Of a stretch of 20,694 nt of DNA, positions 681 through 20,585 are shown piece by piece. Position numbers and translations under genes: made by a program. The notes under the pieces were generated by a model, which worked only from the letters and a program-made list of their open reading frames with translations, searched no databases and had not been told where the DNA came from. Each line of letters begins with the position of its first letter. Position 1 is the first letter of the stretch. The DNA is from a virus. The stretch spans positions 1 to 20,694 of the IMG/VR virus record IMGVR_UViG_3300025301_000156; one strand, written 5' to 3'.

Positions 681-3008
681 CGACTCGTGATAAGTTCCAT
701 GCGTCCCTGAAACATCCCCAGAGTTATTTACAGTCAGTCTGGTAGCGCTGTTAGTGTTGTCGTAAAACCTCAGACCAGCGCCCCCAGAAAAGGTTATGGC
801 AGGGCTATTGGAGTTATCCCCCGCGTACATACCCATTCCTTCACCAAGCCCGGAATCCAAAAATATCTGCGAACTAGCCCCAGAAATCTCTATGGCGTAA
901 CCTGGGCTGGTAGTCCCAACACCAAGTTGTCCTATAACCACTAGCTCATCACCAGACTCATCCCAAAGTAGATACTTACCACTCGTAGCCCCAAAAAACT
1001 TGACATCATGCCCGGTATCATCAACACCTACCGTCAGGGTTCCCCTCTGCACAACACCATCAGCCGAGGTATCCCAATGCCAGTACCTACTGGCAGTGTC
1101 TCCGTACAATTTAAGATCGTAACCCTGATCATCTACCCCCACCAGAATCGAACCGTCAATCTGCATATTACCGTCTATATCAACAGCGTCTAGGTTAGAT
1201 GTACCGTCAATATCCATGTTTCCTGAGATATCCAGCTCCGTAGCGATCACCTTATCATTGAAAGTGGCGGCCCCAGCCGCGCTCATGTCCAGCGTAAGGG
1301 CGGTTATGGTACTCCCGCCGTCATTACCATTGATAATCAGGTCCTTGTCCTGTACGGCAGTCGCGATTACAAAGTCTGAGTTGCCATTCTTTGTCATCGT
1401 ACATATAGTTGTAGCGTCAACATTGAAGTGGAAATCAGCGCCCCCAGAGTCGAACACTATGTCTGAGGAGGCGTCGAGAGTTATGCCAGTACCGTCAACT
1501 TCAAAAGTCCCATCGGCTGTGATCTGTATGTTCGCATCCGTACCAGCAGCATCTACCGTAACAAGAGAAAAAGCCCCGTTAGTGGCGGCGGTCATGGTCA
1601 CGGTATCGCTGGAACTTGGCGTCATTACTATTGAATCATCAGTAATAACCGTGGATCCTACGGTAAAGTCAGTGGTAGCGTCTACAGTCCCGGCAAACGT
1701 TACGTTAGCACCACTAAAGGTAGCTGCCGTAGTCCCCGATGAACTGGATTTGATTAGCAGTTCACCACTATTGTTATTCAGTGTCCCAAAGAGTGTCCCA
1801 TCGTCCTTGAGGAATATATCAGCCCCACCAGCATCTAGAATAATATCCGTTCCCGCGTCTAGCTCTATGCCTCCAGCATCGGATAGAAGCTCGATAGAGC
1901 CCGTACCAGTACCTTGATCTGCGTGGAGTACGATAGTCTCGGACGTACCCCCGTCAGCCGTCAGGAGAAGAGCGTTTGCCCCATTAAGCCCAGACTTTAT
2001 GTTAATCCCGCCTACGTCAGAGAGTAGCTGTATTGATGACGCACCCTCTGTGGCCGCTGTACCCTGATCATTGAACAAGGTCATGGTAGAACTAGTGCCG
2101 CCGTCTACCGTCAGGTTAACGGCGTTAGCCAGGTTGGCAGTAGACCTTATCCCTATCCCACCCGCGTCAGACAGCAGAGATATAGACTCGGCTCCTTCTG
2201 TGACTGAAGTACCTTGGTCATTAAATATGGCAATAGAGCCTGTCGTGCCGCCGTCACTAGTGATATTCACCGCCTTGGCTAAGTTAGCTGTAGACCGAAT
2301 CCCAACACCACCAGCATCTGAGAGTATATTTATAGACTCGGCACCCTCGGTAACTGACGTACCTTGGTCAGCATGAATCTTGATCGTGCCACTTGTACCT
2401 GCGTTCTCTCGTAGATAGATAGCAGCGGCAGCGTCGTAGGTAGATAGAAGGTCTATATCTCCTGATGACGCGATATCAAAATCAGTTACATCGAAGTCAG
2501 CCGTTCCGTTTACATCTAATGTAGTAGTAACCGTCAGGATTCCTCCGACAGTTACAGTGGATGCCGCCGCGTTCGCACCGTTGGTTATGGTCAAGTAGTC
2601 AATAATAGTGCCCGCAGAAGCCTTATCTGAGCCTATGGCAAGGGTGTCTGAGGCAGAAGCCTGCATCCTCCACCCATCACCCGCATCATCCGCCTGATCC
2701 GCAAAGAAGTAGATAGGCGCAGCCGCACCTTCCACACCACGCACCTTTAGACTTGCGGTATCCACCCCCTTGGTGGTGATCTCGTCAGACCAGAGTATGT
2801 ACCTAACACTGGTGCCTGACGTTATCTTTATATCGTAGGTAGTATCAAGACTTGTCTCTGTAAATGACCAGGCACCGTTGCTATCCGTAGTGGTAGAGGT
2901 TTCCTGTGAAGTTGTTCCTGTTTCCAAAAGCGCAACGGTTGCCCCGTTAACAGGGTCTCCGTCATCCTGAAATAGCTTCCCGCTTAAATCAATATCAGTT
3001 ATAGCCAT
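378..3008 (-). CDS. Tail fibre/spike protein with C-terminal S74 intramolecular chaperone (876 aa)
   Basis: This is the receptor-binding fibre. Residues 1-75 form a Cna-B/carboxypeptidase-regulatory-like beta domain (GKLFQDDGDPVNGATVALLETG, GAWSFTET). A linker and a 50-residue repeat array follow (207-356 plus a shortened copy), with SDAGG and DGGT turns, then more Asp/Gly/Thr-rich triple-helix-like sequence. Two VGVDD-x-G-x-D units occur near 630-695. From S777 the sequence is SDARLKENI...MGLIAQEVE...YLTGILIEAIKDL, the Peptidase_S74 chaperone. It trims itself off by a Ser-Lys dyad (S777, K782) once the trimer folds. The ATG has a GGGAG site overlapping the upstream stop. A terminal coiled coil (IKDLSSTVTTLRSEVDTL) closes it. 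The array shows no enzyme domain. Confidence 0.88.
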   Translation of the reverse strand: MAITDIDLSGKLFQDDGDPVNGATVALLETGTTSQETSTTTDSNGAWSFTETSLDTTYDIKITSGTSVRYILWSDEITTKGVDTASLKVRGVEGAAAPIYFFADQADDAGDGWRMQASASDTLAIGSDKASAGTIIDYLTITNGANAAASTVTVGGILTVTTTLDVNGTADFDVTDFDIASSGDIDLLSTYDAAAAIYLRENAGTSGTIKIHADQGTSVTEGAESINILSDAGGVGIRSTANLAKAVNITSDGGTTGSIAIFNDQGTSVTEGAESISLLSDAGGIGIRSTANLANAVNLTVDGGTSSTMTLFNDQGTAATEGASSIQLLSDVGGINIKSGLNGANALLLTADGGTSETIVLHADQGTGTGSIELLSDAGGIELDAGTDIILDAGGADIFLKDDGTLFGTLNNNSGELLIKSSSSGTTAATFSGANVTFAGTVDATTDFTVGSTVITDDSIVMTPSSSDTVTMTAATNGAFSLVTVDAAGTDANIQITADGTFEVDGTGITLDASSDIVFDSGGADFHFNVDATTICTMTKNGNSDFVIATAVQDKDLIINGNDGGSTITALTLDMSAAGAATFNDKVIATELDISGNMDIDGTSNLDAVDIDGNMQIDGSILVGVDDQGYDLKLYGDTASRYWHWDTSADGVVQRGTLTVGVDDTGHDVKFFGATSGKYLLWDESGDELVVIGQLGVGTTSPGYAIEISGASSQIFLDSGLGEGMGMYAGDNSNSPAITFSGGAGLRFYDNTNSATRLTVNNSGDVSGTHGTYHESSDARLKENITTIPDALDKVNALRGVNFTWKDTENKGSDLRMGLIAQEVERVIPEVVHTQNNDQATKAVEYQYLTGILIEAIKDLSSTVTTLRSEVDTLKV
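1850..2390 (-). repeat. 150-bp repeats encoding fibre 50-residue units
   Basis: Three full units of exactly 50 codons (2390-2241, 2240-2091, 2090-1941) and a shortened fourth unit (from 1940) encode a common pattern: H/F-x-D-Q-G-T, then S-I-x-L-L-S-D-A-G-G, then A-x-x-L-T-x-D-G-G-T. Units 1 and 2 are closest. The DNA has diverged more than in the 436-aa gene, so these are older duplications. Confidence 0.85.
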
Positions 3009-3703: not shown

Positions 3704-5784
3704 GGTTCCACCAGATTTATAGTAGATACTCCGCGCTCATCGTACCCACTGTATTCCAGGCCCGTGGCGCTAGCAACGTCTACATAGAAATTACGTGTAC
3801 CTCCGCTATCGTCACGGAAGGTGAACTCTACTAACGTGGTACTCTCTACCGCAGCTAGAAGTGCCGCACGTAGATCCTTAGAACTCTTACTTTTATACTC
3901 TTTATTGAGATCCACCTGTACTTGGTGTCCCCACTTAGCAGGTAGTTTCTTTCTCCACTCCAAGGTTAAGGAGACCATATCAGGAGTTTTCTTTTTGTAG
4001 TTAGCCGTTGTCGTAACATTTGTACGTATCAACGCTACTTTGAACTTGATGGCACGGAAGGCAGTACCAGCAGAAGAACCGAATGTGAATGTTGTTATAC
4101 CCGAGGTCGCCCCAAGAGTAGTGCTAGTAATCTCACTGACATCATTCCCATCCGCATCTCTGAAAACCGAATAACTTTCCGAATAGTCGGTAGCGTAGGT
4201 CACCGTTATCTTCTCTGTTGTAGATAAATCCTGTGCTTCTACCCTAAGCTTGAGAGCTAGTTTATCTACCTCACTCTGCCCCGCGTTAAACCAGGGGGTC
4301 TCATGGGTACCACTTACGGCATATTCAAACTCACTCACTCTAGACGGATTAATGATATCAACAGGGAGTTTCATGTAGTATACGTGATCATCAAACCCGA
4401 ACCAAAGACGATAGTTCTCATTCACATCTGAATAGGCGTTCGATACGTGCATAGCGTCGATTCTTCTGCCTTCCTTATCTGCTACCCACTTAGCTTCCCA
4501 TCCAAGCTCGTTGTACCCAAGGATGCTACTAGAACCAGTCCCCTCATTTATTACCGGGGAGCCACGCCCACCGTGTGTAGGGCTCCACTGGAACGGTACA
4601 CTGTCGGAGTCTGTTATGGTCGGAGAAGTGGTAGCATCCACGCCCACGAGCAGCTCGTTATGAGTACCCTCGGTCAGCATGATGGTGCCTCTGTTGGACT
4701 CGGGAAGCCCGTCATCCCTGTCAGGACCAACGACGGATAAAACCGCGGCATTAGTCCCGTTAACGTACCGATACAACCCCAACCCAGAAGGGAAATATAT
4801 AGAGTCTCTCCATCTATCCGCTCCTTTGCCCGCATGGGGATGGAACGGGAACTCTACCTCTGTCTTAACAAACCTGGCATTAGCCGCATCGTGCGCCCAC
4901 AGGCCCTTTTTGGTAGACGCATAGAGGATAGGTTCTCCTCCTGCGTCACGGGCTACGAATAAGCCGGTGCAGTACCCAGCAGGTAAAGGCAATCGGGCAT
5001 CGTCTACAGCAGTACCGTCATCATCCGATACAGTGAGCGCATACCATAACTGCCCCTCGTTAGATATTCCCCATAACCTATTATCCCAACTTTCTAAATA
5101 CTTAGTAGCCTTGGCAGTATCGGGTTTATCCCATACCCCATTATTAGTGCCGTCATAACTAGGATATCTAGCAAAAGACCATGTGCTACCTGAAGAATCA
5201 TAGTGCGCCAATATCAGCCAGCTAACATTAGAACTGTCCGTGTAATTCAGCGAGTCAGTGACTTGTATCTCTATTCCCTCAAGCCCAGTATCACTGGCGT
5301 GAGCCCCGATAACATTCTCGTCACCCGCAGTCCTGCCGTCATACCATACGTCGGACGCATTGCTGTACACATATATCTTTGAATTATTGCCTACCGCATC
5401 GTTCCATACCGCGTATATCTTGTCATTATGCTCGTTAATAGTCGCTATGCCGGTACCCGAACCAGCCGTAGCAAGACCATGCGCGACAGTATCTGTCTTA
5501 TTGGCTAGGTTACCAAGTACGAGATGGTTCTTGTAACGTAGCTGGCAGTCAGACCACCAGGCACGGTTAACGTCCCCACCGTGTTCCATACGGTCTATGC
5601 CGATACCCCCACGCCAGTCTGACCAGGCAACTATAGAAGTACGAGCTTGAGAATCTTTGCTGGTATCCCCTATAACAACCTTAGAAGGATATATAGAGGC
5701 TAAGACACTCTGCACAGGCCTCATTATAGGGTAATAAACCCCATTGAGACTTATCTCGTTTGGGCTCTCTACCTTTGCGACCAT
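3700..5784 (-). CDS. Probable tail nozzle/hub protein with beta-propeller (694 aa)
   Basis: The first 400 residues contain blade-like strands with Trp and Gly turns: SIVAWSDWRGG, KIYAVWNDAVG, WDNRLWGISNEGQLWYA, PILYASTKKGLWAHD and RDSIYFPSGLGLYRY. They suggest a beta-propeller. The C-terminal 250 residues are beta-sandwich-like and end GLEYSGYDERGVSTINLVEP. In T7-like phages the tail nozzle (gp12) is built on a propeller and is encoded right after the adaptor gene, as here. No sheath, tube or tape-measure gene lies nearby. The start is coupled (TAATG) with no obvious Shine-Dalgarno. The end overlaps the next start (ATGA). The fold is moderately clear. The nozzle role rests on gene order. Confidence 0.6.
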   Translation of the reverse strand: MVAKVESPNEISLNGVYYPIMRPVQSVLASIYPSKVVIGDTSKDSQARTSIVAWSDWRGGIGIDRMEHGGDVNRAWWSDCQLRYKNHLVLGNLANKTDTVAHGLATAGSGTGIATINEHNDKIYAVWNDAVGNNSKIYVYSNASDVWYDGRTAGDENVIGAHASDTGLEGIEIQVTDSLNYTDSSNVSWLILAHYDSSGSTWSFARYPSYDGTNNGVWDKPDTAKATKYLESWDNRLWGISNEGQLWYALTVSDDDGTAVDDARLPLPAGYCTGLFVARDAGGEPILYASTKKGLWAHDAANARFVKTEVEFPFHPHAGKGADRWRDSIYFPSGLGLYRYVNGTNAAVLSVVGPDRDDGLPESNRGTIMLTEGTHNELLVGVDATTSPTITDSDSVPFQWSPTHGGRGSPVINEGTGSSSILGYNELGWEAKWVADKEGRRIDAMHVSNAYSDVNENYRLWFGFDDHVYYMKLPVDIINPSRVSEFEYAVSGTHETPWFNAGQSEVDKLALKLRVEAQDLSTTEKITVTYATDYSESYSVFRDADGNDVSEITSTTLGATSGITTFTFGSSAGTAFRAIKFKVALIRTNVTTTANYKKKTPDMVSLTLEWRKKLPAKWGHQVQVDLNKEYKSKSSKDLRAALLAAVESTTLVEFTFRDDSGGTRNFYVDVASATGLEYSGYDERGVSTINLVEP

Positions 5785-8574: not shown

Positions 8575-8982
8575 TTATGAGTGTTTATCTTGCTCATGCT
8601 TTCGTAGAGAAGCCGTAGCGTTTGTGAGGCGAACGTGTTCCGCTACGTAGTCGCATTCCTTACAGGAAGCCTTTGCCATAGCATTAGGATTACTCGACTC
8701 TACGTTTGAAGTCCTAGATTCTACACACCACCGACATTCACAACTATCCGAAGGGGCTACCGGCAGCATACCTAACTTAGCCTTTTTAGTCACATAGTCA
8801 GGATTGCCCGGTACTCCTTTTATAGCCGTACCGATAGGAAATACTATGTCCCCTACGTTGTTACGACCTGGAGCATGACGATATAGAGTGGTCTTGGGTT
8901 GCCACGTATCTATATATTCCCATGAATAACCCTGTGAGACCAATTCTCGTCTAAGTTCCTGTCGCTCGGTGGTGGTTACCAT
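8575..8982 (-). CDS. Small zinc-binding-like head-module protein (135 aa)
   Basis: The first 75 residues are helical then extended (GYSWEYIDTWQPKTTLYRH). The C-terminal half carries a C-x-C-x2-C cluster (CECRWC), then C-x2-C (CKEC), and H-x4-H near the end (HEQDKH). Together these look like a zinc finger or ribbon, although the 18-residue gap between the second Cys of CKEC and the first His is longer than in a classic C2H2 finger. It follows the capsid gene by 10 nt, with a GAGGTAGGA purine-rich site before the ATG. A role in head completion or as a small DNA- or protein-binding factor is possible. I do not recognise the family. Confidence 0.72.
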   Translation of the reverse strand: MVTTTERQELRRELVSQGYSWEYIDTWQPKTTLYRHAPGRNNVGDIVFPIGTAIKGVPGNPDYVTKKAKLGMLPVAPSDSCECRWCVESRTSNVESSNPNAMAKASCKECDYVAEHVRLTNATASLRKHEQDKHS

Positions 8983-10706: not shown

Positions 10707-10736
10707 GAACCCTACCTCTATATAAGGTACTCAGAT

Positions 10737-13700
10737 CTAATAGTATCCGTATTTTTCAATAAGCCCTTTTAGATATGGATCCTTATTTCGCATTCCTTTT
10801 TGGGCTCTACTTCTTCCTCCTACCACATAAATTAGGTCGCTAGGTCCCTTTGTCCGAATATAATCTTTGGCCTCTGCCGGTTTATTTTGTCTGAGTAGCG
10901 ATTTATATGTGTCATACGCGTCTTCGACACCTAAATCTTCCGCTAGTATTCTTTCTACATTCCAATAGCCTGTAGCTTCTATATACTCCCTGTCCCGCCT
11001 AAGTTGCAGTTCATAGTCAGGAAGTGGCTTATCAGGACTCGCTTCATGCAAAGCCTTTATATCTTCTACGAATTGTGGACTGTACTGCTTTTTAAGGTAT
11101 TCCCTCCTATATTCACGTTCGTCCCAGTTAATCCCATATTCATCTTCAAGCGGGGTATATACATATGTATCATCGTAAGACCCCAATAAGGCCGTTGCCC
11201 ATTCCGAGTACCCTGACGATCCATCATCGGCAAACAATAGCCTGTTATATACATCACTAGCTTCATCATAAGGTCCATCTGGGTCCATATCACGAAAAGC
11301 CTTATTCTCTGCCGCTATCTTTTTAGCTTGTTCCTTTAGTAGATAGAACTCGGCGAATATAGCTGTTCGTTTCTCTCTGTAATGTCTGCCTGGTTCCTCC
11401 TTATCATTGTTAGACGCCTTCCAAGCTTCCTCTAACTTTTTGAGAAGGGTATTCCAATACTCATCTACCTGAGCATAATACCTACCTAACGCGGGGTTGA
11501 ATTTTATAGTGTCTTCTCGTTTCTTTCGAGAAGCTTCTGCGTATCCTGGAGCGCCTTTTACCAAGGCTTGTGTCTTTGGGTCCTTTGACCAAGATTCTTC
11601 AGGGGTATAGTCAAGATCTTTCTCACTCCATATACCAGACTCGTAACCGCGTATCCTATTTATCTCTTCTACCGTCTTACCCTCGAACATCTCAGGAACT
11701 TCTTCTCTACCAAGCCTTTCCATTCTCTCGCCTTCGGTCATCACGCTAGTGCGGAATCCAGCCTGAGAAGCAGCTTGCGCTATCGCGCCCTCGCCGTCTA
11801 GCTTACCTTGCACGACAAAAGGAAGGAGCGAGGTCCCCAGATGTTTGGCGATATCCGGCACAGAATCTATATGGTCATAAGGAAGTATGTTTATCTTACC
11901 TTTGGACAACCCCTCCCCTATAGCCCCTAGCACATTCACCCCAACCGCGCCACGGCTCATATATAGTTGTAGTATCGGATTGTCCATCATATTTGGAGTA
12001 AGGAATTTGTTTATGTCCCCTTTATATGTAGCTGCTATAGCATAAGATAGGAATTGTAATAGGGCTCGTTGTTGTCCTCCTGCCCCAATCCAATCATTAT
12101 TTATTAAGTACGCCATATGTTTCTTGCCACTCAGAGGATTAAGTCCCTTCTCTATGTCTTTCCAGGGCTTTCCAAGCGCTATTCCTGCTAGGGTATAAAC
12201 CATGCCCGCCCCAATGAGAAGTCGTGTTATATTCCTTAAAGACGCGGCCTGACGAGCCGTAATAGCACGTCCTGGCACCATATTAACTAACCCTCGTAGC
12301 GCGTCTGCCGTAACCGCCACAGTAGATCTAAGTAGACGGGGAGAAAACGCCAGCATGACAGACTCGACGCTCTGCTGTGCGGGACCGACTCCTAATGCTC
12401 TTGTGTCCAGTCCGCCAGTTAGATTCCTTATATAAGCAGCCAGCTCGGCATCAGATCCGTCCCAACTATCCTTATTTGCTTTCCATAGCATATTCCTACT
12501 AACACCTAGCATAGCGGAATACGACGCCTGGAATCTTCCTAGAGACTGCTTTTCTAATACCTTCGCCGCCCTTCGTGCCCCTTCACCACCAGGAACCTTA
12601 CCCAGTAGGGCTAAAGGAGATGCCCCACGCCCAGCTTGCATGGCGATAAACATTTCGTTAGACATCCCGGTAGGAATCCCTGCTGCGCTCATCTCGGCAA
12701 ACGAATCCAGATTATCCCTGACATATCGGCTGTAAACAGTGGGATCCAGGAAAGCCCTATAATGATACCCAGTGGCTTTCGCCCAAATAACGGGGTTTTC
12801 TGTCAACACGAAAAGCCCATGTATAAGAGGCGCGGCATAGTCAAGAGTAGCCGACATCATACGTGTTATGTTAACGAAGTTCACAAAGCCCCGACCTAAC
12901 CACCTAGCTACGTCCCCACCAGATCTAACTCCTCGTCTAGGGGTACTCTGTAAAGCCTCTTTTAGGAGATCCGCGTCCTCTTTGGGCATAAACCGCTTGT
13001 TCCATTCTCCTATAACTATCGCTTTATCGGCTTTACCGAATAACTCCCCAGGAGCATACTGCTTTGCTTTCGCATCATCCAACGCATTATTGTACCTATT
13101 TTTAGACAAGGTATAGGCCGATTCAGCCTTGTTTTTACGAGCAGTCGCGTTACGACGCTGCGTCGTAAGTTCTTTCCTCAACGTCCTTTCCGCCTCAGTA
13201 CTCGGCATCCCCTTACGCAGCCTTCCTCGTGGTACCCGTAAGCGATTAACTTCTCTTCTAGCTTTTGTTAGCTCTCGTGTTTTCTCAATCGCGTCATTAG
13301 TAATATCAGTCGATATTAACCTTGAAGGCTTTATAGATAGAGGCGCTAACGCGTCAGATAGCTGCTTATCTAGTATCTCTTTATACGACGCCCTGAGATG
13401 TAGTTCGAGAGTCCTATACGGACTGTTAGAGTAACGAATACCCATATCGAAGTAACCCACAGTAGCCTCTTCAAATACCCTGCGTAATTTAGGATTAGTC
13501 TTACCAAGAAGCTCTAGATTATCTATACTCTCGACCTGTCTAGGTACATAGAACCAACCATCTTTTGATCGCGTTCCTCTTGGAGCCAGCCCCCTTCTAA
13601 TACGTATCGCCTCCGCCTCATCCACCAATGTTAGGTAGTCTTTTATATACGCCTTTTCTTCTGGTAGCAGTTCAGACGCCCATCTAGGATCATCTGGACG

Positions 13701-16700
13701 AGAGAACACATCATTCCAAAGGTACTTAGTATTAGCGAAGAATCCTTGCGAGTTTATCCTAACCGGTTCCCAAGCAATGGTTTTAGATAGCGCGCCAAGC
13801 ATTTTAGGTACTACTCTTCCAGTAGCCTCACGACCACGCATAAATGGTCTCATGCCCCTTACATGACCCCCTAAGCCTCCGGCTAAACCCACCTCAACAG
13901 CCGAGTCTATAGCTATCTGTTGCCTATAATAGGCAACTAGTATTTTCCCTGTTTCAGTATCCATTGCCGCAGATGGGTTCACAAAAAACTGGGCGATCTG
14001 ACGTATGACCGGGGTAGTAATAGATCTTACCTCACGAGCAACATCCGTAATCTCCCTGAGATCGGCTAAGAATCGGGATCCTTCAGGTATATCGGCAAGC
14101 GGTTTATAACCCCCTGTAGGCCTCGTAGGGGGACTAGTGGGAGGAATTCCAGCACCCCCCGTAGTAGGTATTACTTTAGGAAGCTCCTTTGGTATCGCAG
14201 CGGGAGTATCAATAACCTCCCGTACAGTAGGCCGTGTGGCGATGGGAGGATCAGTAGCCGGTACTACCCGTTCGGCGGTAGGTGTGGTTGGAGTATAAAC
14301 CCTAGCTACTCGTGGGTTTAAGACTATAACCTGGTCTCCTCCTACAGCCCTAAAAAACTTATTATCAGTCGCTTTTACGATCTCGTCGCTATTGCGTATA
14401 GCCACAACATCGTAGTCTCTGGCGATTCTATCCCAAACGGATAGTTCTCCAGTAGTAATAACCTCTTCTAACAAATAACCATACTTATCCTTTACTCGGT
14501 CGTAATCCGACATAGAACCTAGCTCAAGTACCCTTGATATAGGGGATATCTCAAACTCAACTGGCGAAAGAGTCGTTACGACGTCCTCGTCCATAGACTT
14601 CATCCATTGTTGTTTATCGTAGTCAAAGAAGGACGTTCCTCCCATCCCCTCGTTTTCAGGAGTAGACGGAACAACCTTGCCCTTTATACTTTCCTCGTGT
14701 ATCTTGCTCCATCTTTCATCATCCAGAGAAAGATAAAGCCTATTCCCGGCAAACTTACCTACTTTAGGCCCTCTCCCCAAATCTCCTGTCCCATGTTTAG
14801 GTACTCTAGTCGGGTCAAAAGTCTCCCCTGCCTCCAGTCGAGCCTTTACTTCTGGAGTAGTAAAGTGCTTGAATCTACCGCCTGCTATTGTCGCTCCGGC
14901 TCGAGTAGGAGGGATTACCTCCTGCACTACCCGTTCGGTGGGAGGATCAGGCACATCATCCCAAGCTGACGCTCTAGCGCGGGCATTGAGAGCCTCAAAA
15001 TATTCGTCCTCACCATATTTTCGTATAAGCTCTGTTTCATAATCATCAACAATATTTTGAGATTGCTGATATGACGCAGATACGCGTTCTGTACTGGGCG
15101 TTTCTTCCATGATATCTTGGAATATGGCTCGGGTCTGTCTAGCAAGTGGATGATTATTAGGCACCTCTGAAATACTTAATTCATCTACCAGTCTATGTCT
15201 CTCAACGGAACTCTTTGCTCGGTTGTACCGCTTCCAAGCCAAGTTGTTATATATGTCACCTATTATTTTCTCAGCTTCTTTACTCCCTAATCTCATATCT
15301 GGATAATAAGCAGCAGTACGACTCCATGATTCTGAGACCTTTTTTATTACCTCCCTAATGTCTTCCTTTGTAGCAGGCCCCTTTAACGCGGACGGTTTTA
15401 GTCTCCCGATTGCCGCTTTAAGATGTGTGGCGGCGTCTGCCTCCCCAATAGCGTCACGATCTTTATATAAGCCCTCTAATTTCTGGAACTCCTGATCTGT
15501 AAGTACCCCTAGGGACTTGGGTGCGCTAGGTGCGGGCGTGGTGGGTACAACATCAGTAGCCGGTACTACCCGTGCGGTGGGCACATCAGCCAATCTTACC
15601 GCCTCTGCCGGTTTTCTAACGGCCTCTCCAGTAGCGGTACGTATGTTGAAGTAGGGCTTACGTACTTCATTTATCTCTATCGTCCCTTTGCCTGTTACCT
15701 TACCGGCACCCATAGTGCCATCCGCTGCTTCAAAAACAACGTCGTCACCAATCCGTACAGCCTGCCTGAGGGATAAAGATCCGTAATTAGGTCCTGTCTG
15801 GAGATTATACCCAGTTATATCCGTCCCCACTTCTCCCAAAAGGGGCTGCTGTTGTGCCTGTCTGGTAGGTCGTGCGGTAGGTCCTTTCCCAATTCCAGGT
15901 CCCTGTTCTTCTAGTTTCCCAGATACTCCCAGCCATTCATTCACTTCCCTTGGAGACTCTACATCTTTTGGCTCAGGTAAAGATTCTTCTACTTGTTTCA
16001 GGGCATTACTAATTCTTCTGTTCTCTACCGTACCTAATCTAAACAGAACATCTTCTCTACCTTCTCCTACATATGCGGCCTTGTTAACCCAGCCTTTTTT
16101 GTACACCCCTGGAATGGGACTCTCATCTACTACCCCATCAAAAGGCGCCCACTGTTCTGGCCCTAGGTGTTTAGCTTCCCCACCTCTACCTGTGCGACGG
16201 TAGAAGGGCTGGAACTTCCCATCAGGAAGTCTAACAACAACCATATCTCTGCCACGATACTTTATGACATCATCTACATAGATAGAAAAACCACTCATTC
16301 CCGGTAATTCACTAAAGCCTTCTTCCCGCATAGCGGTGGGAGGAGGGGGTTTAGGTGCGACGGGTCGTGTGCCTATTGGGACTAGCCCTTTTGGCGTTGG
16401 AGGTAGTCCTAAAACATTTCGGCCCGCGGATCCTAGTGTCTTAGCTATTCCCTGTTCATATACCTCAAGAGGGGTTAGAGCCTCTCTAGTGGCACCCATT
16501 AGGTATCGCTGGAAGGAAGGGGTCTTTGTTGCGGCCTTTCGTGCTTGAAGACCCCCCCTAATCGCCTTTGCAGGTGGTATAAGAAACCAAGGAAGCTCTT
16601 CAAGCATCCCCCTTACATATGGAGGCATCTTATATTGTTCTTCTCTTATTTTCCTACGTTCCCGTTCGTTTAGAAGCTTTCCTGTAGCCGCTTCTCTACG

Positions 16701-17321
16701 TTCCGCTTCCTCCCGTACATTTTTAGCCATTATGGTTCTCTGACCTAACGCGGGCCAATTAAAAGCTTCTGTTACAGGATCAGCCCCAGCAAAAGCGCCA
16801 AGGACGGCCATCGGGTCAATTCCTCCTTCTGGCTTTAAATAAGCATCGAAGGTGGGCTTCCACTTGTCATCTTCATACTTCATAGGAAAGTATTTAGTTC
16901 GCCCGCTAACGGTTGGCTTCACTGCGTATTCATGTATAGCTTCTAGTGGCTTAAACGCTAGAGGAGCTATTTTAGGAGCTAGTCGAGCCCACGGGGGACC
17001 GGCCTCTAACACTTCTCCTATACTACCTAACACCCCTGGTCCCTGTTCGGGACTCACAGAGGGAGGCACCATAGTAGGGGTGAAGGTACTACTAATATCT
17101 CCAACTATAGGATCAAATGGGGTAGTAGCTTGGGGCATGAAAGGAGCCGCCTGAGTAGGGGCCGCGGGAGGGGTAGTAGATCTGTTACGCCAAGCCTCTT
17201 TAGCCTCGTCAGTAAATCCGCCTGTAGCCTCATCTATAGGATTAGGCACATTTCGTAGGCTAGGATAATACTTATTAGCTATCTGCCAATGTTCGAGAAG
17301 AGTTTTCTCTCCGTTAGGCAT
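10737..17321 (-). CDS. Giant phage polyvalent-type protein (2194 aa) with ART-like and LPD38-like regions
   Basis: One uninterrupted 6.6-kb frame. Visible regions: a Pro/Ala-rich N-terminus (45-110); a beta-rich segment about 335-445 (QPFYRRTGR, GWVNKAAYV); an SH3-like strand-rich segment 515-577; a Pro linker with RVVPATD near 580; a helical region 600-790; an ADP-ribosyltransferase-like domain 815-1010 (H819, Y863, Q997); a long Pro/Thr linker to 1080; a basic coiled coil 1337-1418; a region 1476-1760 resembling LPD38 of large polyvalent proteins, with one hydrophobic helix at 1697-1717; and a charged helical C-terminus of about 400 residues. Polyvalent proteins combine many domains and are thought to enter the host with phage or plasmid DNA. 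No tape-measure-like heptad pattern dominates. Start coupling is by TAATG. The name rests on architecture and motif reading without a profile search; packaging and ejection are inferred. Confidence 0.8.
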   Translation of the reverse strand: MPNGEKTLLEHWQIANKYYPSLRNVPNPIDEATGGFTDEAKEAWRNRSTTPPAAPTQAAPFMPQATTPFDPIVGDISSTFTPTMVPPSVSPEQGPGVLGSIGEVLEAGPPWARLAPKIAPLAFKPLEAIHEYAVKPTVSGRTKYFPMKYEDDKWKPTFDAYLKPEGGIDPMAVLGAFAGADPVTEAFNWPALGQRTIMAKNVREEAERREAATGKLLNERERRKIREEQYKMPPYVRGMLEELPWFLIPPAKAIRGGLQARKAATKTPSFQRYLMGATREALTPLEVYEQGIAKTLGSAGRNVLGLPPTPKGLVPIGTRPVAPKPPPPTAMREEGFSELPGMSGFSIYVDDVIKYRGRDMVVVRLPDGKFQPFYRRTGRGGEAKHLGPEQWAPFDGVVDESPIPGVYKKGWVNKAAYVGEGREDVLFRLGTVENRRISNALKQVEESLPEPKDVESPREVNEWLGVSGKLEEQGPGIGKGPTARPTRQAQQQPLLGEVGTDITGYNLQTGPNYGSLSLRQAVRIGDDVVFEAADGTMGAGKVTGKGTIEINEVRKPYFNIRTATGEAVRKPAEAVRLADVPTARVVPATDVVPTTPAPSAPKSLGVLTDQEFQKLEGLYKDRDAIGEADAATHLKAAIGRLKPSALKGPATKEDIREVIKKVSESWSRTAAYYPDMRLGSKEAEKIIGDIYNNLAWKRYNRAKSSVERHRLVDELSISEVPNNHPLARQTRAIFQDIMEETPSTERVSASYQQSQNIVDDYETELIRKYGEDEYFEALNARARASAWDDVPDPPTERVVQEVIPPTRAGATIAGGRFKHFTTPEVKARLEAGETFDPTRVPKHGTGDLGRGPKVGKFAGNRLYLSLDDERWSKIHEESIKGKVVPSTPENEGMGGTSFFDYDKQQWMKSMDEDVVTTLSPVEFEISPISRVLELGSMSDYDRVKDKYGYLLEEVITTGELSVWDRIARDYDVVAIRNSDEIVKATDNKFFRAVGGDQVIVLNPRVARVYTPTTPTAERVVPATDPPIATRPTVREVIDTPAAIPKELPKVIPTTGGAGIPPTSPPTRPTGGYKPLADIPEGSRFLADLREITDVAREVRSITTPVIRQIAQFFVNPSAAMDTETGKILVAYYRQQIAIDSAVEVGLAGGLGGHVRGMRPFMRGREATGRVVPKMLGALSKTIAWEPVRINSQGFFANTKYLWNDVFSRPDDPRWASELLPEEKAYIKDYLTLVDEAEAIRIRRGLAPRGTRSKDGWFYVPRQVESIDNLELLGKTNPKLRRVFEEATVGYFDMGIRYSNSPYRTLELHLRASYKEILDKQLSDALAPLSIKPSRLISTDITNDAIEKTRELTKARREVNRLRVPRGRLRKGMPSTEAERTLRKELTTQRRNATARKNKAESAYTLSKNRYNNALDDAKAKQYAPGELFGKADKAIVIGEWNKRFMPKEDADLLKEALQSTPRRGVRSGGDVARWLGRGFVNFVNITRMMSATLDYAAPLIHGLFVLTENPVIWAKATGYHYRAFLDPTVYSRYVRDNLDSFAEMSAAGIPTGMSNEMFIAMQAGRGASPLALLGKVPGGEGARRAAKVLEKQSLGRFQASYSAMLGVSRNMLWKANKDSWDGSDAELAAYIRNLTGGLDTRALGVGPAQQSVESVMLAFSPRLLRSTVAVTADALRGLVNMVPGRAITARQAASLRNITRLLIGAGMVYTLAGIALGKPWKDIEKGLNPLSGKKHMAYLINNDWIGAGGQQRALLQFLSYAIAATYKGDINKFLTPNMMDNPILQLYMSRGAVGVNVLGAIGEGLSKGKINILPYDHIDSVPDIAKHLGTSLLPFVVQGKLDGEGAIAQAASQAGFRTSVMTEGERMERLGREEVPEMFEGKTVEEINRIRGYESGIWSEKDLDYTPEESWSKDPKTQALVKGAPGYAEASRKKREDTIKFNPALGRYYAQVDEYWNTLLKKLEEAWKASNNDKEEPGRHYREKRTAIFAEFYLLKEQAKKIAAENKAFRDMDPDGPYDEASDVYNRLLFADDGSSGYSEWATALLGSYDDTYVYTPLEDEYGINWDEREYRREYLKKQYSPQFVEDIKALHEASPDKPLPDYELQLRRDREYIEATGYWNVERILAEDLGVEDAYDTYKSLLRQNKPAEAKDYIRTKGPSDLIYVVGGRSRAQKGMRNKDPYLKGLIEKYGYY
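12042..12896 (-). other. LPD38-like region of the giant protein (residues ~1476-1760)
   Basis: The region is mostly helical, beginning NFVNITRMMSATLDYAAPL. It includes RFQASYSAMLGVSRNMLW, a Gly-rich AYIRNLTGGLDTRALG, the segment ESVMLAFSPRLLRSTV, and a hydrophobic helix (LLIGAGMVYTLAGIALG, near 1701-1717). This order, with an FSPR-like motif and one hydrophobic segment near the end, is what I associate with the large polyvalent protein-associated domain LPD38. The biochemical role of LPD38 is not known. The assignment is from memory of the family pattern and needs a profile search. Confidence 0.4.
14241..14280 (-). repeat. Inter-domain linker repeat, copy 3 (ERVVPATD)
   Basis: This copy follows the ART-like domain (residue about 1015) and encodes TAERVVPATDPP. 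Its 20 bp at 14251-14270 are identical to 15553-15572. With copy 2 it brackets the ART-like domain, as expected if domains are exchanged through shared linker DNA. Confidence 0.7.
14292..14879 (-). other. Putative ADP-ribosyltransferase-like domain (residues ~815-1010 of the giant protein)
   Basis: The segment opens with KHFTT (H819), followed by a helix and a Gly, as in ART folds that begin with an H(F/Y)TS-type strand. RLYLSLDDERW (Y863) matches the second conserved strand with its Tyr and a trailing Trp. Next comes V.FEI....VLEL, then WDRIARDYDVVAI. The final strand is GGDQVIVLNPRVARV, where Q997 sits at the usual Glu/Gln position before an NP/DP strand. This H-Y-[E/Q] order is the signature of ART-fold enzymes of the KptA/polyvalent types. 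With Gln instead of Glu, mono-ADP-ribosylation, 2'-phosphotransferase-like activity or an inactive domain are all possible. Confidence 0.5.
14922..14950 (-). repeat. Inter-domain linker repeat, copy 2 (ERVVQE)
   Basis: This copy encodes PPTERVVQEVIPPT just before the ART-like domain (residue about 795). It shares the actacccgttcgg core and the adjacent gggaggatcag with the copy near 14241-14280, although the order of these parts differs. Confidence 0.6.
15550..15590 (-). repeat. Inter-domain linker repeat, copy 1 (RVVPATD)
   Basis: The linker between the SH3-like segment and the helical region (residue about 580) is encoded by DNA sharing a 20-bp identical stretch (15553-15572) with 14251-14270. 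A related shorter copy lies near 14922-14950. The three copies are about 215-220 codons apart. Confidence 0.7.
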
Positions 17322-17662
17322 TAGTAAAATCGTCTCACTGAGGGAGCTAACCTAGACGTTGTGCCTCCTGGTCTGAGACGAGGACTTAGAGAAGAGTACC
17401 TCTCAGTCCAAGGGTACTTACCTAGATAGTCGTGAAAGGACATTGGTGGTTCCTGCCCCAAGCGCATAGCCCTACCCAACTCCCCCTCATACTGGTTCAT
17501 TACGTTGCCGTACTGACCTGACCAGTATTGCTGGGCGGCTGGAGAATATCCTCCGCCAAAGGGAGACGCAGCAGAAGGACCCGCTCCGAACGGTTCCGAG
17601 CTATAGTACGCGGCCCTGGGCTCATGTGGTAACCACTGTGAAAAATCGTTTTCTTGCGGCAT
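17321..17662 (-). CDS. Hypothetical small virion-region protein (113 aa)
   Basis: The protein is short and rich in Gly, Ser, Pro and Tyr. A helical stretch from about residue 43 (AAQQYWSGQYGNVMNQYEGELG) is followed by FHDYLGKYPW and YSSLSPRLRPG. It has a basic C-terminus. The order helix, then F..YL, then a short Pro/Arg tail loosely resembles the C-terminal helical parts of the two preceding proteins. The start has a modest AAGGTGAT ribosome binding site. Its TAA overlaps the ATG of the giant gene (TAATG), and the giant gene has no clear Shine-Dalgarno of its own. Translation of the giant protein therefore probably depends on ribosomes finishing here. Function is unknown. Confidence 0.7.
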   Translation of the reverse strand: MPQENDFSQWLPHEPRAAYYSSEPFGAGPSAASPFGGGYSPAAQQYWSGQYGNVMNQYEGELGRAMRLGQEPPMSFHDYLGKYPWTERYSSLSPRLRPGGTTSRLAPSVRRFY

Positions 17663-17683
17663 ATATCACCTTACCTATTATAC

Positions 17684-18994
17684 TTAGTACCAAGTACCTT
17701 CAAGACTAGGGTCGAGGTACTCCCAATCTGCTGGCTCGTTAAAAGTAGGATTAGGAATAAATGGTTCGGGTATGGGATCATACCCAGTACCCCAGCCAGG
17801 TGGTAGGGGTACATCGTCTACTGGTGGTTGATACGTTGGTGGTGTGGACGGTGGTGTGAGCTTACCCCAGCCAGGTGGTAGGGGTACATCGTCTACTGGT
17901 GGTTGATACGTTGGTGGTGTGGACGGTGGTGTGAGCTTACCCCAGCCAGGTGGTAGGGGTACATCGTCAACTGGTGGTTGATACGTTGGTGGTGTGGACG
18001 GTGGTGTGAGCTTACCCCAGCCAGGTGGTAGGGGTACATCGTCTACTGGTGGTTGATACGTTGGTGGTGTGGACGGTGGTATGAAAGGCACGTTTGCTCT
18101 ACCGCCCGTACCCCAGCCAGGTGGTAGGGGTACATCGTCCACTGGTGGTTGATACGTTGGTGGTGTTATTGCCTCATGGCCCACGAAGCCAGGTGGTAGG
18201 GGCACGTCATCGACGTTTGCTGCTATACCATTGACCGCACCAACCCCCGTAGGAGCCCCGTTAGCTGCTACTTCTGATGGTATAGTGGGCGTACTACCTA
18301 CATAGTAATCTGGATTCACTAACGCTTCCTGCCCAGTAAGATGTCCTAGCCAATCAACGTTAGTAGCAAATGGATTTTCCGCAAAGAACCTGTTTTGGGC
18401 ACGTTGTAATCCCGCCTGACGCATCCTCCCGTAAATAGACCCCGCCCTAGGATCGAATGTAGCCAGCCCGAGTATATTTCTAACGGACTCGTCCACTCCT
18501 AACGGGCCGGTTTCGTACCACCTATCATACGCGGCCTGAGCGTCCCTTGGATCGATCCCTATAGATTCTAGGGCTTCGGGTCTACCCTGACCGTATGTTC
18601 TAGCGACATTTATCATTTGCTCCCACTCAGGCCGGGCTACCCCAGGCACCCCCTGCTGACCATAAAACCTGCTGCCGCCCTCGACTCCATCTTCTCCCAT
18701 GAGCCACTTTTGGAACCCCTCCTCCGATCTACCCGCAGCAGGAAAGGACATTTGATACTGGCCCATAAGCGGATCTTGTAACCTAGATACCAGACGTTGG
18801 TGTAAGTCACTGCTCTCTAACGATGGGAACGCCGCCCTAGCGGCCATACCGTATAGGCGTTCGAGTCCCACATCCTGCCAAGGATCTATTCCATGAGCTA
18901 ACGTGGGTTCAGTAGCACCCCGCCCAAGTCCGTAATTAGGTCCTGTGTCGGTCCATTCCCACTCGCCTGATTGTTGATTCCACTGATAAGGCAC
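17684..18994 (-). CDS. Proline-rich tandem-repeat virion-region protein (436 aa, GTG start)
   Basis: The family is not recognised. The N-terminal 230 residues form an aromatic, helical domain that resembles the preceding 391-aa protein (M191 begins MRQAGLQRAQNRFFAE). Residues about 260-402 are a low-complexity tail of repeats built on DDVPLPPGW, spaced by KLTPPSTPPTYQPP. A 30-residue acidic/aromatic tail follows. The start is GTG (18992-18994), overlapping the upstream TAG, with a clear GGAGG 6 nt before it. No ATG start fits better. Such a Pro-rich array is likely extended and may bind other proteins or span the virion wall. That is inference. There is no signal peptide or membrane segment. 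Confidence 0.75.
   Translation of the reverse strand: MPYQWNQQSGEWEWTDTGPNYGLGRGATEPTLAHGIDPWQDVGLERLYGMAARAAFPSLESSDLHQRLVSRLQDPLMGQYQMSFPAAGRSEEGFQKWLMGEDGVEGGSRFYGQQGVPGVARPEWEQMINVARTYGQGRPEALESIGIDPRDAQAAYDRWYETGPLGVDESVRNILGLATFDPRAGSIYGRMRQAGLQRAQNRFFAENPFATNVDWLGHLTGQEALVNPDYYVGSTPTIPSEVAANGAPTGVGAVNGIAANVDDVPLPPGFVGHEAITPPTYQPPVDDVPLPPGWGTGGRANVPFIPPSTPPTYQPPVDDVPLPPGWGKLTPPSTPPTYQPPVDDVPLPPGWGKLTPPSTPPTYQPPVDDVPLPPGWGKLTPPSTPPTYQPPVDDVPLPPGWGTGYDPIPEPFIPNPTFNEPADWEYLDPSLEGTWY
17790..18216 (-). repeat. 75-bp tandem repeat array inside the 436-aa gene
   Basis: Units begin on the plus strand at 17790, 17865, 17940 and 18015, each 75 bp (25 codons). The next copy begins at 18111, after a 21-bp insertion and a diverged end. 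A shortened sixth copy of the core lies near 18186-18216. The first three units are nearly identical. The main difference is the third base of one valine codon before the DD pair, seen as GTA, GTT and GTG in different copies. All copies stay in frame and encode the DDVPLPPGW-type motif. Confidence 0.95.
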
Positions 18995-20169
18995 TATAAG
19001 CCTCCTTTTGTTGGGTCCGTAGCGCTAGGCGTAGCTGCCCACTTCCCGCCTACATTCTCACTAAGCCAAGCGGCAAATCCTCTCCTATCCTCGTCTTCTG
19101 CCCATAGCTGCTCTTTATAAAATCTATCATATAGTCTATCTAGACCGCTCGTCCTCATCTGATTATACGATCCTTTAGGATCCGAGGCCCCCGGCTTTCC
19201 GCCTGTTATATTGCCCACAGCCATCGCCGCGTAGTATTCGTTACTTCTTCCCTGGCCTAAAGGACTAGGATCATATATATCCAAAATAATCCTATTCCTA
19301 AATGGTCGGGAAAGAGGATCGTACTCCAGAGAGTTTGCCGCCGTGGTAAACACTCTTTTATTACCCTCTGTTAGTCCTTCGGAACCCAGCTTTACCAGAT
19401 ACTCCCAGTTATCCTTCTGAGAATCCTGATCGTAAAACTCCTCGGGCGATTTTTGATACGACTCCATAAGCCATCCAGGCCATTCGTATCTGTTATCTTC
19501 GGGGCTGCCGCGTTGGCCGTATCCAGTAGATGCTTCTCCTGCCTCGGTATTAAACTCTTTCGGTCTATTAAGATACCTTTGTAAATACCATCTACCACGA
19601 GACGGTCCATAACTCAGTTCCAGCCTAGATCTCATCATAGGCGCGTTAGCATTAGCGCCTAAGTACTTCTGGGCTATAGCATCATACGCGTTAGGGGCGG
19701 TAGCCCCATAAACACCCTCTGGTACATTCTCTATTAACTTTTTAATACCCTGTGCTGTGATTGTCGTAGGTGTAAGCGGACTTTCGGCTTCTTCTCCTTC
19801 CCCCATAGGTGCTGCCAGAGCCGCTTCTACTTGGGATTTTTCTGCTTCAGCGGCTCTTCTAGCCGCGCTAGGAATAGGTATTGCCCTGGGGTCCATGAAC
19901 TCGTGGGGTAAAGGTACCTCTCCCTCTTGGGTGACGTCCCACATACTAGTCCCTTGTCCTATCTGCTTATAAGAAACGGGAGGAAGAACTTCCTGTTGCA
20001 GGTTAGGCATAGTAGGAGCAAGGCTATCTTCAGCCTTATTTAGGAGCCGTAACTCTGCCCATATTTCTCCTGTACTAACACCAAAAGCCTTAGATAGCTC
20101 TAATACTTGTTTATCTAGATGGGTACTAAAGTCAGCTACTTTGAAGCTTTCCGAAGGACGTACCGGCAT
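18994..20169 (-). CDS. Hypothetical virion-associated protein, likely paralogue of the next gene product (391 aa)
   Basis: No known domain is recognised. Residues 1-40 form a predicted helix (DKQVLELSKAFGVSTGEIWAELRLL). A Pro-rich stretch (about 50-150) follows, including GEVPLPHEF, which recalls the VPLPPG repeats of the next protein. The C-terminal half is aromatic and helical. From about residue 308 it reads PLG...S, then MRTSGLDRLYDRFYKE (from M338), ending in an FAAWL segment. The 436-aa neighbour has the same order (PLG...S, MRQAGLQRAQNRFFAE, then WL), which suggests duplication and divergence. The ATG is preceded by AGGGGA at good spacing. The TAG stop overlaps the next GTG start by 1 nt (TAGTG), implying coupled translation. 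A packaged virion protein is a positional inference. Confidence 0.75.
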   Translation of the reverse strand: MPVRPSESFKVADFSTHLDKQVLELSKAFGVSTGEIWAELRLLNKAEDSLAPTMPNLQQEVLPPVSYKQIGQGTSMWDVTQEGEVPLPHEFMDPRAIPIPSAARRAAEAEKSQVEAALAAPMGEGEEAESPLTPTTITAQGIKKLIENVPEGVYGATAPNAYDAIAQKYLGANANAPMMRSRLELSYGPSRGRWYLQRYLNRPKEFNTEAGEASTGYGQRGSPEDNRYEWPGWLMESYQKSPEEFYDQDSQKDNWEYLVKLGSEGLTEGNKRVFTTAANSLEYDPLSRPFRNRIILDIYDPSPLGQGRSNEYYAAMAVGNITGGKPGASDPKGSYNQMRTSGLDRLYDRFYKEQLWAEDEDRRGFAAWLSENVGGKWAATPSATDPTKGGL

Positions 20170-20174
20170 TTTAC

Positions 20175-20585
20175 TTATCCCCTAAACGAGGCTTCTGGGA
20201 ACGAGGCCATAAGAGCCCGAGCCGCTTGTTTAGCCCTGTTCTTTCTGCTGGATTGTTCTACTCTTACCATGCCCTCCAAATCAGTGTTTACTTTCTGGTT
20301 AGCCGCCTTCGACGCCATCATGGCTGCTACTGGCGGAGGCGCTCCTGCCTTCATGGCCTGTAGGTATTCGGGATCAGGGCCTTTAGGTCCTGGTGTATTG
20401 GGGAGTTTCCCCTGTTTCGCCAGCTCTGCCAGTTCGATCAGCTTGGGGTCTATATTACCAGGCCTTCCCGGCGCGCCCTGCCCCATCATCTGCTGTACGA
20501 ACGGAGGAGTAACCCCAGTCATAATATCCTGTGGCATAGATCCAAAGGCTTTAATAAGATCTTGTTCCTGCTTTTTAGTAGGCAT
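20175..20585 (-). CDS. Hypothetical small virion-region protein (136 aa)
   Basis: I do not recognise this family. The protein has a short charged N-terminus and a Gly/Pro/Met-rich middle (QQMMGQGAPGRPG, then PNTPGPKGPDPEY). The C-terminal third is basic and helical, rich in Arg, Lys and Ala. There is no signal peptide or membrane segment. Its ATG follows the upstream stop by 2 nt, with a GAGAGGG purine run as ribosome binding site. It ends 5 nt before the next gene, whose Shine-Dalgarno (AGGGGA) lies in this gene's last codons. It sits first in a run of Pro/Gly-rich genes leading to the giant protein gene, so a virion-associated role is likely but inferred from position only. Confidence 0.7.
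   Translation of the reverse strand: MPTKKQEQDLIKAFGSMPQDIMTGVTPPFVQQMMGQGAPGRPGNIDPKLIELAELAKQGKLPNTPGPKGPDPEYLQAMKAGAPPPVAAMMASKAANQKVNTDLEGMVRVEQSSRKNRAKQAARALMASFPEASFRG

Follow-up and report, generated by a model that had tools for sequence, protein, structure and literature searches.

The comparison of related phage contigs indicates that, in some lineages, the tail of a small protein, here called T, is built and rebuilt from in-frame repeat units much faster than its surroundings. The stretch analysed, called the window throughout, is a 20,694-bp virus record (IMG/VR IMGVR_UViG_3300025301_000156) from which the rest of the genome is absent, and its T gene ends in a Pro-rich tail that carries a 75-bp tandem array. 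Tail fibres are the usual place to look for variation in phages. In the present set, L021 and L028, two relatives that are otherwise about 99.9% identical over about 12 kb, differ almost only in the T repeat tail. The reading that we favour, at about even chances, is that T is a virion protein whose disordered repeat tail would serve as a flexible multivalent tether.

The features to which the text refers all lie on the minus strand of the window:

10725..20190, minus strand: cassette of U, T, V and the large gene, apparently replaced as a block in contig G005 (contig comparison)
10737..17321, minus strand: large gene (2,194 aa), a candidate ejection protein by position only (ORF list; no family match)
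17321..17662, minus strand: gene V (113 aa), conserved downstream neighbour of T and the query for finding relatives (protein scans)
17684..18994, minus strand: gene T (436 aa, GTG start), which carries the repeat tail (ORF list; homologous ORF at the same place in related contigs)
17687..18298, minus strand: Pro-rich tail of T (residues 233-436, 28% Pro), hypervariable and predicted to be disordered (composition; pLDDT; unrelated tail in the relative L004)
17693..17752, minus strand: C-terminal peptide NPTFNEPADWEYLDPSLEGT, kept in L004 while the rest of the tail is replaced (sequence comparison)
17788..18084, minus strand: strict 75-bp tandem array, about 4 units (TRF; unit comparison)
17792..17821, minus strand: copy 6, VDDVPLPPGW, GTA valine (unit comparison)
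17867..17896, minus strand: copy 5, VDDVPLPPGW, GTA valine (unit comparison)
17942..17971, minus strand: copy 4, VDDVPLPPGW, GTT valine, third base at 17969 (unit comparison)
18017..18046, minus strand: copy 3, VDDVPLPPGW, GTA valine (unit comparison)
18113..18142, minus strand: copy 2, VDDVPLPPGW, GTG valine, 96 bp from copy 3 (unit comparison)
18185..18214, minus strand: copy 1, VDDVPLPPGF, the most diverged, GTC valine (motif and codon listing)
18299..18994, minus strand: residues 1-232 of T, a conserved helical domain (end point of the aligned short-form homologues; AlphaFold helices)
18994..20169, minus strand: gene U (391 aa), upstream neighbour of T, with a C-terminal part that is a T-domain paralogue by profile comparison (hhalign)

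The repeat array

The earlier note had described 17790-18216 as a recent tandem expansion of a 75-bp unit in which only the wobble base of a valine codon varied. The 75-bp repeat itself is confirmed: at 17788-18084 TRF reports period 75 with 4.0 copies, 98% matches and a score of 580; exact self-matches in the tail reach 111 nt, whereas none of 300 codon-shuffled tails has one longer than 15 nt; and DDVPLPPG occurs six times in T at successive spacings of 24, 32, 25, 25 and 25 codons. The units of the array lie head-to-tail, in frame and near-identical, as in a VNTR-like coding locus. The strict tandem, however, covers only about 297 bp of the described interval. Older copies, spaced 96 and 72 bp apart, occupy 18085-18216, and the oldest of them (copy 1) ends in F instead of W and carries the GTC valine. 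In coding order, the valine codons before DDVPLPPG are GTC, GTG, GTA, GTT, GTA and GTA. Specifically, the wobble-only description fits the 19-codon block TPPTYQPPVDDVPLPPGWG of copies 2-6 but not the spacers between the blocks, which vary in amino acids (VGHEAI, PFIPPS, KLTPPS; unit comparison). The three KLTPPS units differ from one another at 0-1 of 75 bases, about the level that separates the window lineage from L004 in the T domain (5/696), and this agreement supports the recent amplification that had been proposed.

The proposed selection on the DDVPLPPGW peptide fared less well, as the array alone gives no significant signal: within the 19-codon block, copies 2-6 differ by 2 synonymous changes and no non-synonymous one (neutral P about 0.09-0.11). 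Over all six copies, the nine codons of VDDVPLPPG have 6 synonymous and 0 non-synonymous changes (P about 0.0007-0.0014), in a biased test whose P is optimistic because copy 1 was recognised through its conserved peptide. Judged from these codon changes, selection on the repeat peptide in the T tail is possible. The DDVPLPPG motif is nevertheless dispensable within the group, since it is absent from L004, whose T domain is 99.3% identical, and the same absence leaves a conserved partner of DDVPLPPGW unsupported.

Tail turnover between close relatives

The clearest case of turnover is provided by L021 and L028, which are about 99.9% identical outside the T tail and have rebuilt tails. Their alignment of 12,270 bases contains 53 substitutions. 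T accounts for 47, of which 44 lie from residue 228 onward, and also for 79 of the 106 gap bases; no P value is given for this excess because the changes are clustered and may be one or few events. A unit of about 98 bp has been gained or lost in the T tail between the two, and L028 carries, farther upstream, a second copy (96%) of a 98-bp distal-tail unit. Where the two tails are homologous, 2 of 38 codons differ, both non-synonymously, a sample too small for a test. Between the window lineage and L004, 691 of 696 T-domain bases are identical (99.3%), followed by about 600 bp of unrelated sequence and then again by 97-100% identity. The L004 tail, without the DDVPLPPG motif, has a duplicated 94-bp unit of its own (97%), and the two contigs also diverge in U over about 200 bp.

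Other near-identical pairs place these cases in context. Substitutions in T number 2 of 15 for L026/L027, 1 of 4 for L017/L018, 0 of 7 for L024/L025, 0 of 112 for L029/L030, 0 of 99 for L029/L031, 0 of 4 for L040/L041 and 0 of 1 for L040/L042, and near-identical pairs with a short T or the same tail have no clear excess of change in T; for the long-tailed L044/L045 the count is 5 of 10. Repeat units have also been gained or lost elsewhere, namely an 18-bp unit in U between L029 and L031 (near 3978-3996) and a 27-bp unit in the large gene between L028 and L021 (near 8287). T is thus not unique as a repeat carrier, since the linkers of U and of the large gene also contain repeats.

A larger replacement is seen in contig G005 (IMGVR_UViG_3300025286_000126), which matches the window at 99.5% identity over 9,788 bp, from the large-gene end into the fibre, and matches G001, the contig of L002, at 98.6% across 2,903 bp that span terminase, portal and the 136-aa gene. 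Against window 10725-20190, V aligns at 78% and, apart from a 36-bp match, U, T and the large gene give no DNA alignment. The fibre differs as well in its C-terminal part (window about 378-940), with most of the fibre 99.5% identical, which on the alignment is likely a module exchange at the chaperone end. A search for a second contig with a G005-type cassette found none, and G005 may represent either an exchanged cassette close to the putative portal gene or a chimeric assembly.

Tailed and short homologues

Scans of IMG/VR with the V protein returned 19 and then 30 loci. T was assigned in 29 of the 30 (all except L048), and grouping identical or near-identical proteins left 21 distinct homologues; in the divergent L019, L044, L046, L047, L049 and L050, T was assigned by its position upstream of V. 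Fourteen of these 21 position-matched homologues are short (200-320 aa), and the nine short forms that were aligned end at or near the end of the window T domain. The seven tailed forms measure 436 (window type), 486 (L004), 446 (L021), 451 (L028), 418 (L026), 550 (L043) and 790 aa (L044). Exact repeats of at least 15 nt occur in five of the seven tailed T genes, the exceptions being L043 and L044, and in none of the 14 short ones. The same count was made for neighbouring genes at 14 of the 21 loci, with portal and terminase rows missing where they were uncovered or missed by the search strings: such repeats were present in 0/14 V, 0/12 portal and 0/11 terminase rows, and also in 6/14 U and 6/7 large genes, those of the large gene mostly near the shuffled maximum. 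On a T-domain tree of 14 of the 21 homologues, in which L019 is the only divergent member aligned and forms a long branch, the tail label changes three times, at least twice as forced by well-supported branches, with gains and losses indistinguishable. L026 and L027, which bear different sample numbers, encode the same tailed protein.

The T protein

Structure prediction is consistent with a folded domain followed by a disordered tail. Modelled alone with AlphaFold, the T domain is mostly helical in a moderate model (mean pLDDT 66.7), with block pLDDT of 70-89 from residue 121 on and lower values before. From about residue 241 on, the tail has pLDDT of 35-48, values typical of disordered regions, although a shallow alignment also lowers pLDDT, and it is predicted to be disordered. 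The five tails measured have a low-charge, net acidic and Pro-rich composition in common; DP[ST][LVM] occurs in four and D[VI]P in three of the seven tails, strings that are too short for a claim.

Searches for known counterparts, including any family or fold that would mark an internal or ejection protein of short-tailed phages, gave little. Neither the full-length nor the domain model matched BFVD at E <= 0.001, and VIA-align found no confident match among PDB structures, where a fold may have been missed (best matches: Z 3.5 over 61 residues at rmsd 4.0, and Z 2.4 over 98 residues at rmsd 7.0). A profile search of PDB sequences with T returned only E values of 0.34 and above. For T, U, V and the large protein, nothing exceeded the cut-off in PHROGs, Pfam or NCBIfam, and a tblastn search of 50,697 phage records with T, the large protein and the putative portal returned no hit; the 44-aa repeat unit, searched in the same records at E up to 10, gave no match in a search weakened by low-complexity filtering. 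Literature searches for the peptide as a known binding motif (PLPPGF, LPPGF, PLPPGW and DIPPLPPGF forms) gave unrelated subjects among the matches listed, and a published description of the T family was not found, which is not proof of absence.

Three candidate identities for T found no support. An MBD domain, suggested by the shared LPPGW string, scores 18.5 bits against a cut-off of 21, with a best stretch of only 14 residues (341-354). For a BACON repeat protein there is no BACON Pfam match at E up to 0.1. Finally, the target of a diversity-generating retroelement would vary by substitution at fixed codons without duplication, whereas the differences between sister tails include unit copying, gaps and wholesale replacement.

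Gene neighbourhood

In coding order, the window has the 136-aa gene, U, T, V, the 2,194-aa gene, a 255-aa gene called scaffold-like by position only, the major head protein and, further on, the fibre. The head protein of the window matches phrog_267 (E 4.5e-10) and Phage_capsid_4 (E 3.5e-9), and a domain search finds a Peptidase_S74 chaperone in its fibre. The putative portal is a 621-aa protein upstream of the 136-aa gene in relatives, so named by position and size, for which a profile search gave no confident family match. The C-terminal part of U and the T domain are paralogous on profile alignment (hhalign probability 96.7%, E 4e-10, 169 columns); V was rejected as a paralogue of T (probability only 10%) and of U (0.1%). 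Six named phages come nearest by head protein, at 26-33% identity, and four of them are pelagiphages. A search for relatives in bacterial genomes confirmed none, and no host is therefore proposed.

Three further observations concern this region and the rest of the window. The putative portal (L011 640-2505 and the same gene at other loci) has a long Pro-rich C-terminal stretch in the rows read. The fibre gene contains an imperfect 150-bp repeat (74% matches, TRF) at window 2095-2370. At window 8575-8982, a 135-aa ORF has paired Cys and His residues that recall a zinc finger, for which the Pfam match is sub-threshold.

Discussion

The available data are compatible with a model in which T belongs with U and V to a set of small proteins whose genes lie in the structural cluster of an uncultured tailed phage, with the putative portal gene on one side and a very large gene on the other. 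In some lineages only, its helical domain continues into a long disordered tail past the point where T ends in other relatives, and in this model short units of the tail (75, 96 and 72 bp in the window, others elsewhere) are copied, lost and replaced in frame through slippage or unequal recombination. As such, the array of the window is read as one recent step of a wider tail-rebuilding process. The resulting tether would present several copies of a short aromatic and Pro-containing motif, which is DDVPLPPGW in the window and varies among its sisters, along a spacer of low complexity, and could dock onto other parts of the virion or onto something in the host. The repeat, the presence or absence of the tail, its turnover beside near-identical flanks and its disorder-like prediction are observed; we infer that T is in the virion, that the motif binds something and that the change is driven by selection and not by drift. 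A more far-reaching version, which we regard as doubtful, is that a probably internal or ejected protein whose gene lies near that of the portal, not a receptor-binding fibre, with the fastest-changing coding segment seen in these sister genomes, constitutes a recombination-driven diversification locus that adapts DNA delivery or head assembly to the host.

The strongest rival is neutral turnover of an unconstrained tail, which we hold to be possible though less probable than the tether. Here, T would carry a weakly constrained disordered extension in which repeats come and go by slippage, recombination and drift, with no motif-specific function and with only an open frame and a soluble composition kept. 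That the tail is missing in 14 of 21 homologues, that the motif is lost in L004, that the linkers of U and the large gene also gain and lose units and that the array alone shows no significant selection are all as this account would have it. It fits less easily with the absence of non-synonymous changes beside 6 synonymous ones in the VDDVPLPPG core of six copies, biased as that test is, with the retention of the C-terminal peptide while the rest of the tail was replaced, and with the like composition of the five measured tails. Display of the T tail outside the particle, where it would bind hosts or host polymers and be replaced in an arms race as fibre tips are, could explain why replacement islands are flanked by near identity and why, in G005, the T cassette and the S74 fibre C-terminal part both differ with about 9.8 kb at 99.5% identity. 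We nevertheless consider it distinctly unlikely, as the T gene lies apart from the fibre genes and near the putative portal, profile searches found no adhesion domain, and G005 is a single contig that may be a chimeric assembly.

The array could also be partly an artefact of assembly, its true copy number differing because copies were collapsed or expanded, and the contigs of the window, L002 and L003 bear on this question. The copy-number variation that the earlier note had considered possible was not seen at the window array: the window equals L002 in number, and L003, which ends inside the array as assemblers do at repeats, has the same array as far as its sequence goes. L002 differs from the window at a single position in 9,008 bp, base 17969, where the wobble of copy 4 changes from GTT (window) to GTA (L002); L003 retains GTT. 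This one difference, which falls within the array, may be a polymorphism, a homogenised copy or the assembler's choice, so that part of the wobble variation first noted is the sole difference between two assemblies. A 297-bp array would exceed a typical short read. The artefact that the earlier note had named as a danger is nonetheless highly improbable, at the level at which contigs can address it: copy number agrees between the window and L002 with one base different, the 96-bp and 72-bp copies are distinct in sequence, tails of other lineages hold comparable repeats, and the same tailed protein recurs in L026 and L027.

If change in the T tail is under selection, host adaptation would also act on a protein of the head or the delivery machinery. 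In addition, the tail-less homologues and tail-swapped pairs provide a natural comparison set for the role of disordered repeat tails in virions.

Comparison with known systems

Pelagiphages of the HTVC111P type (MN698245 and kin) have a major head protein related to that of the window at 28-30% identity, and share with it the order of portal, scaffold and head genes. Between portal and scaffold, HTVC111P has a single hypothetical gene annotated on the same strand, and its annotation also includes a tape measure gene; tblastn with T, the large protein and the putative portal found no matches in HTVC111P.

De Jonge et al. (2019, PMC6949934) describe tandem repeats of BACON domains in tail-associated proteins of crAss-like phages. 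As in T, which is probably structural by gene context, the repeats multiplied by one duplication after another within a structural protein and are present in some lineages only (PMC6949934); the BACON repeats are domains, whereas the unit of T comprises 25 Pro-rich residues that are predicted to be disordered. The tolA gene of E. coli (Zhou et al. 2012, PMC3477136) has variable intragenic tandem repeats that are in frame, as in T, and change in copy number by recombination. tolA is bacterial and the effects of its repeat number were tested, whereas T is known from sequence alone; furthermore, whole tails of T are replaced and not only lengthened. Finally, hypervariable regions are known from marine phage genomes, for instance in long-read viromes of the Sargasso Sea (PMC11094077), and compared with these the T island is confined to the tail of a single gene close to that of the putative portal, with repeat units as its visible substrate.
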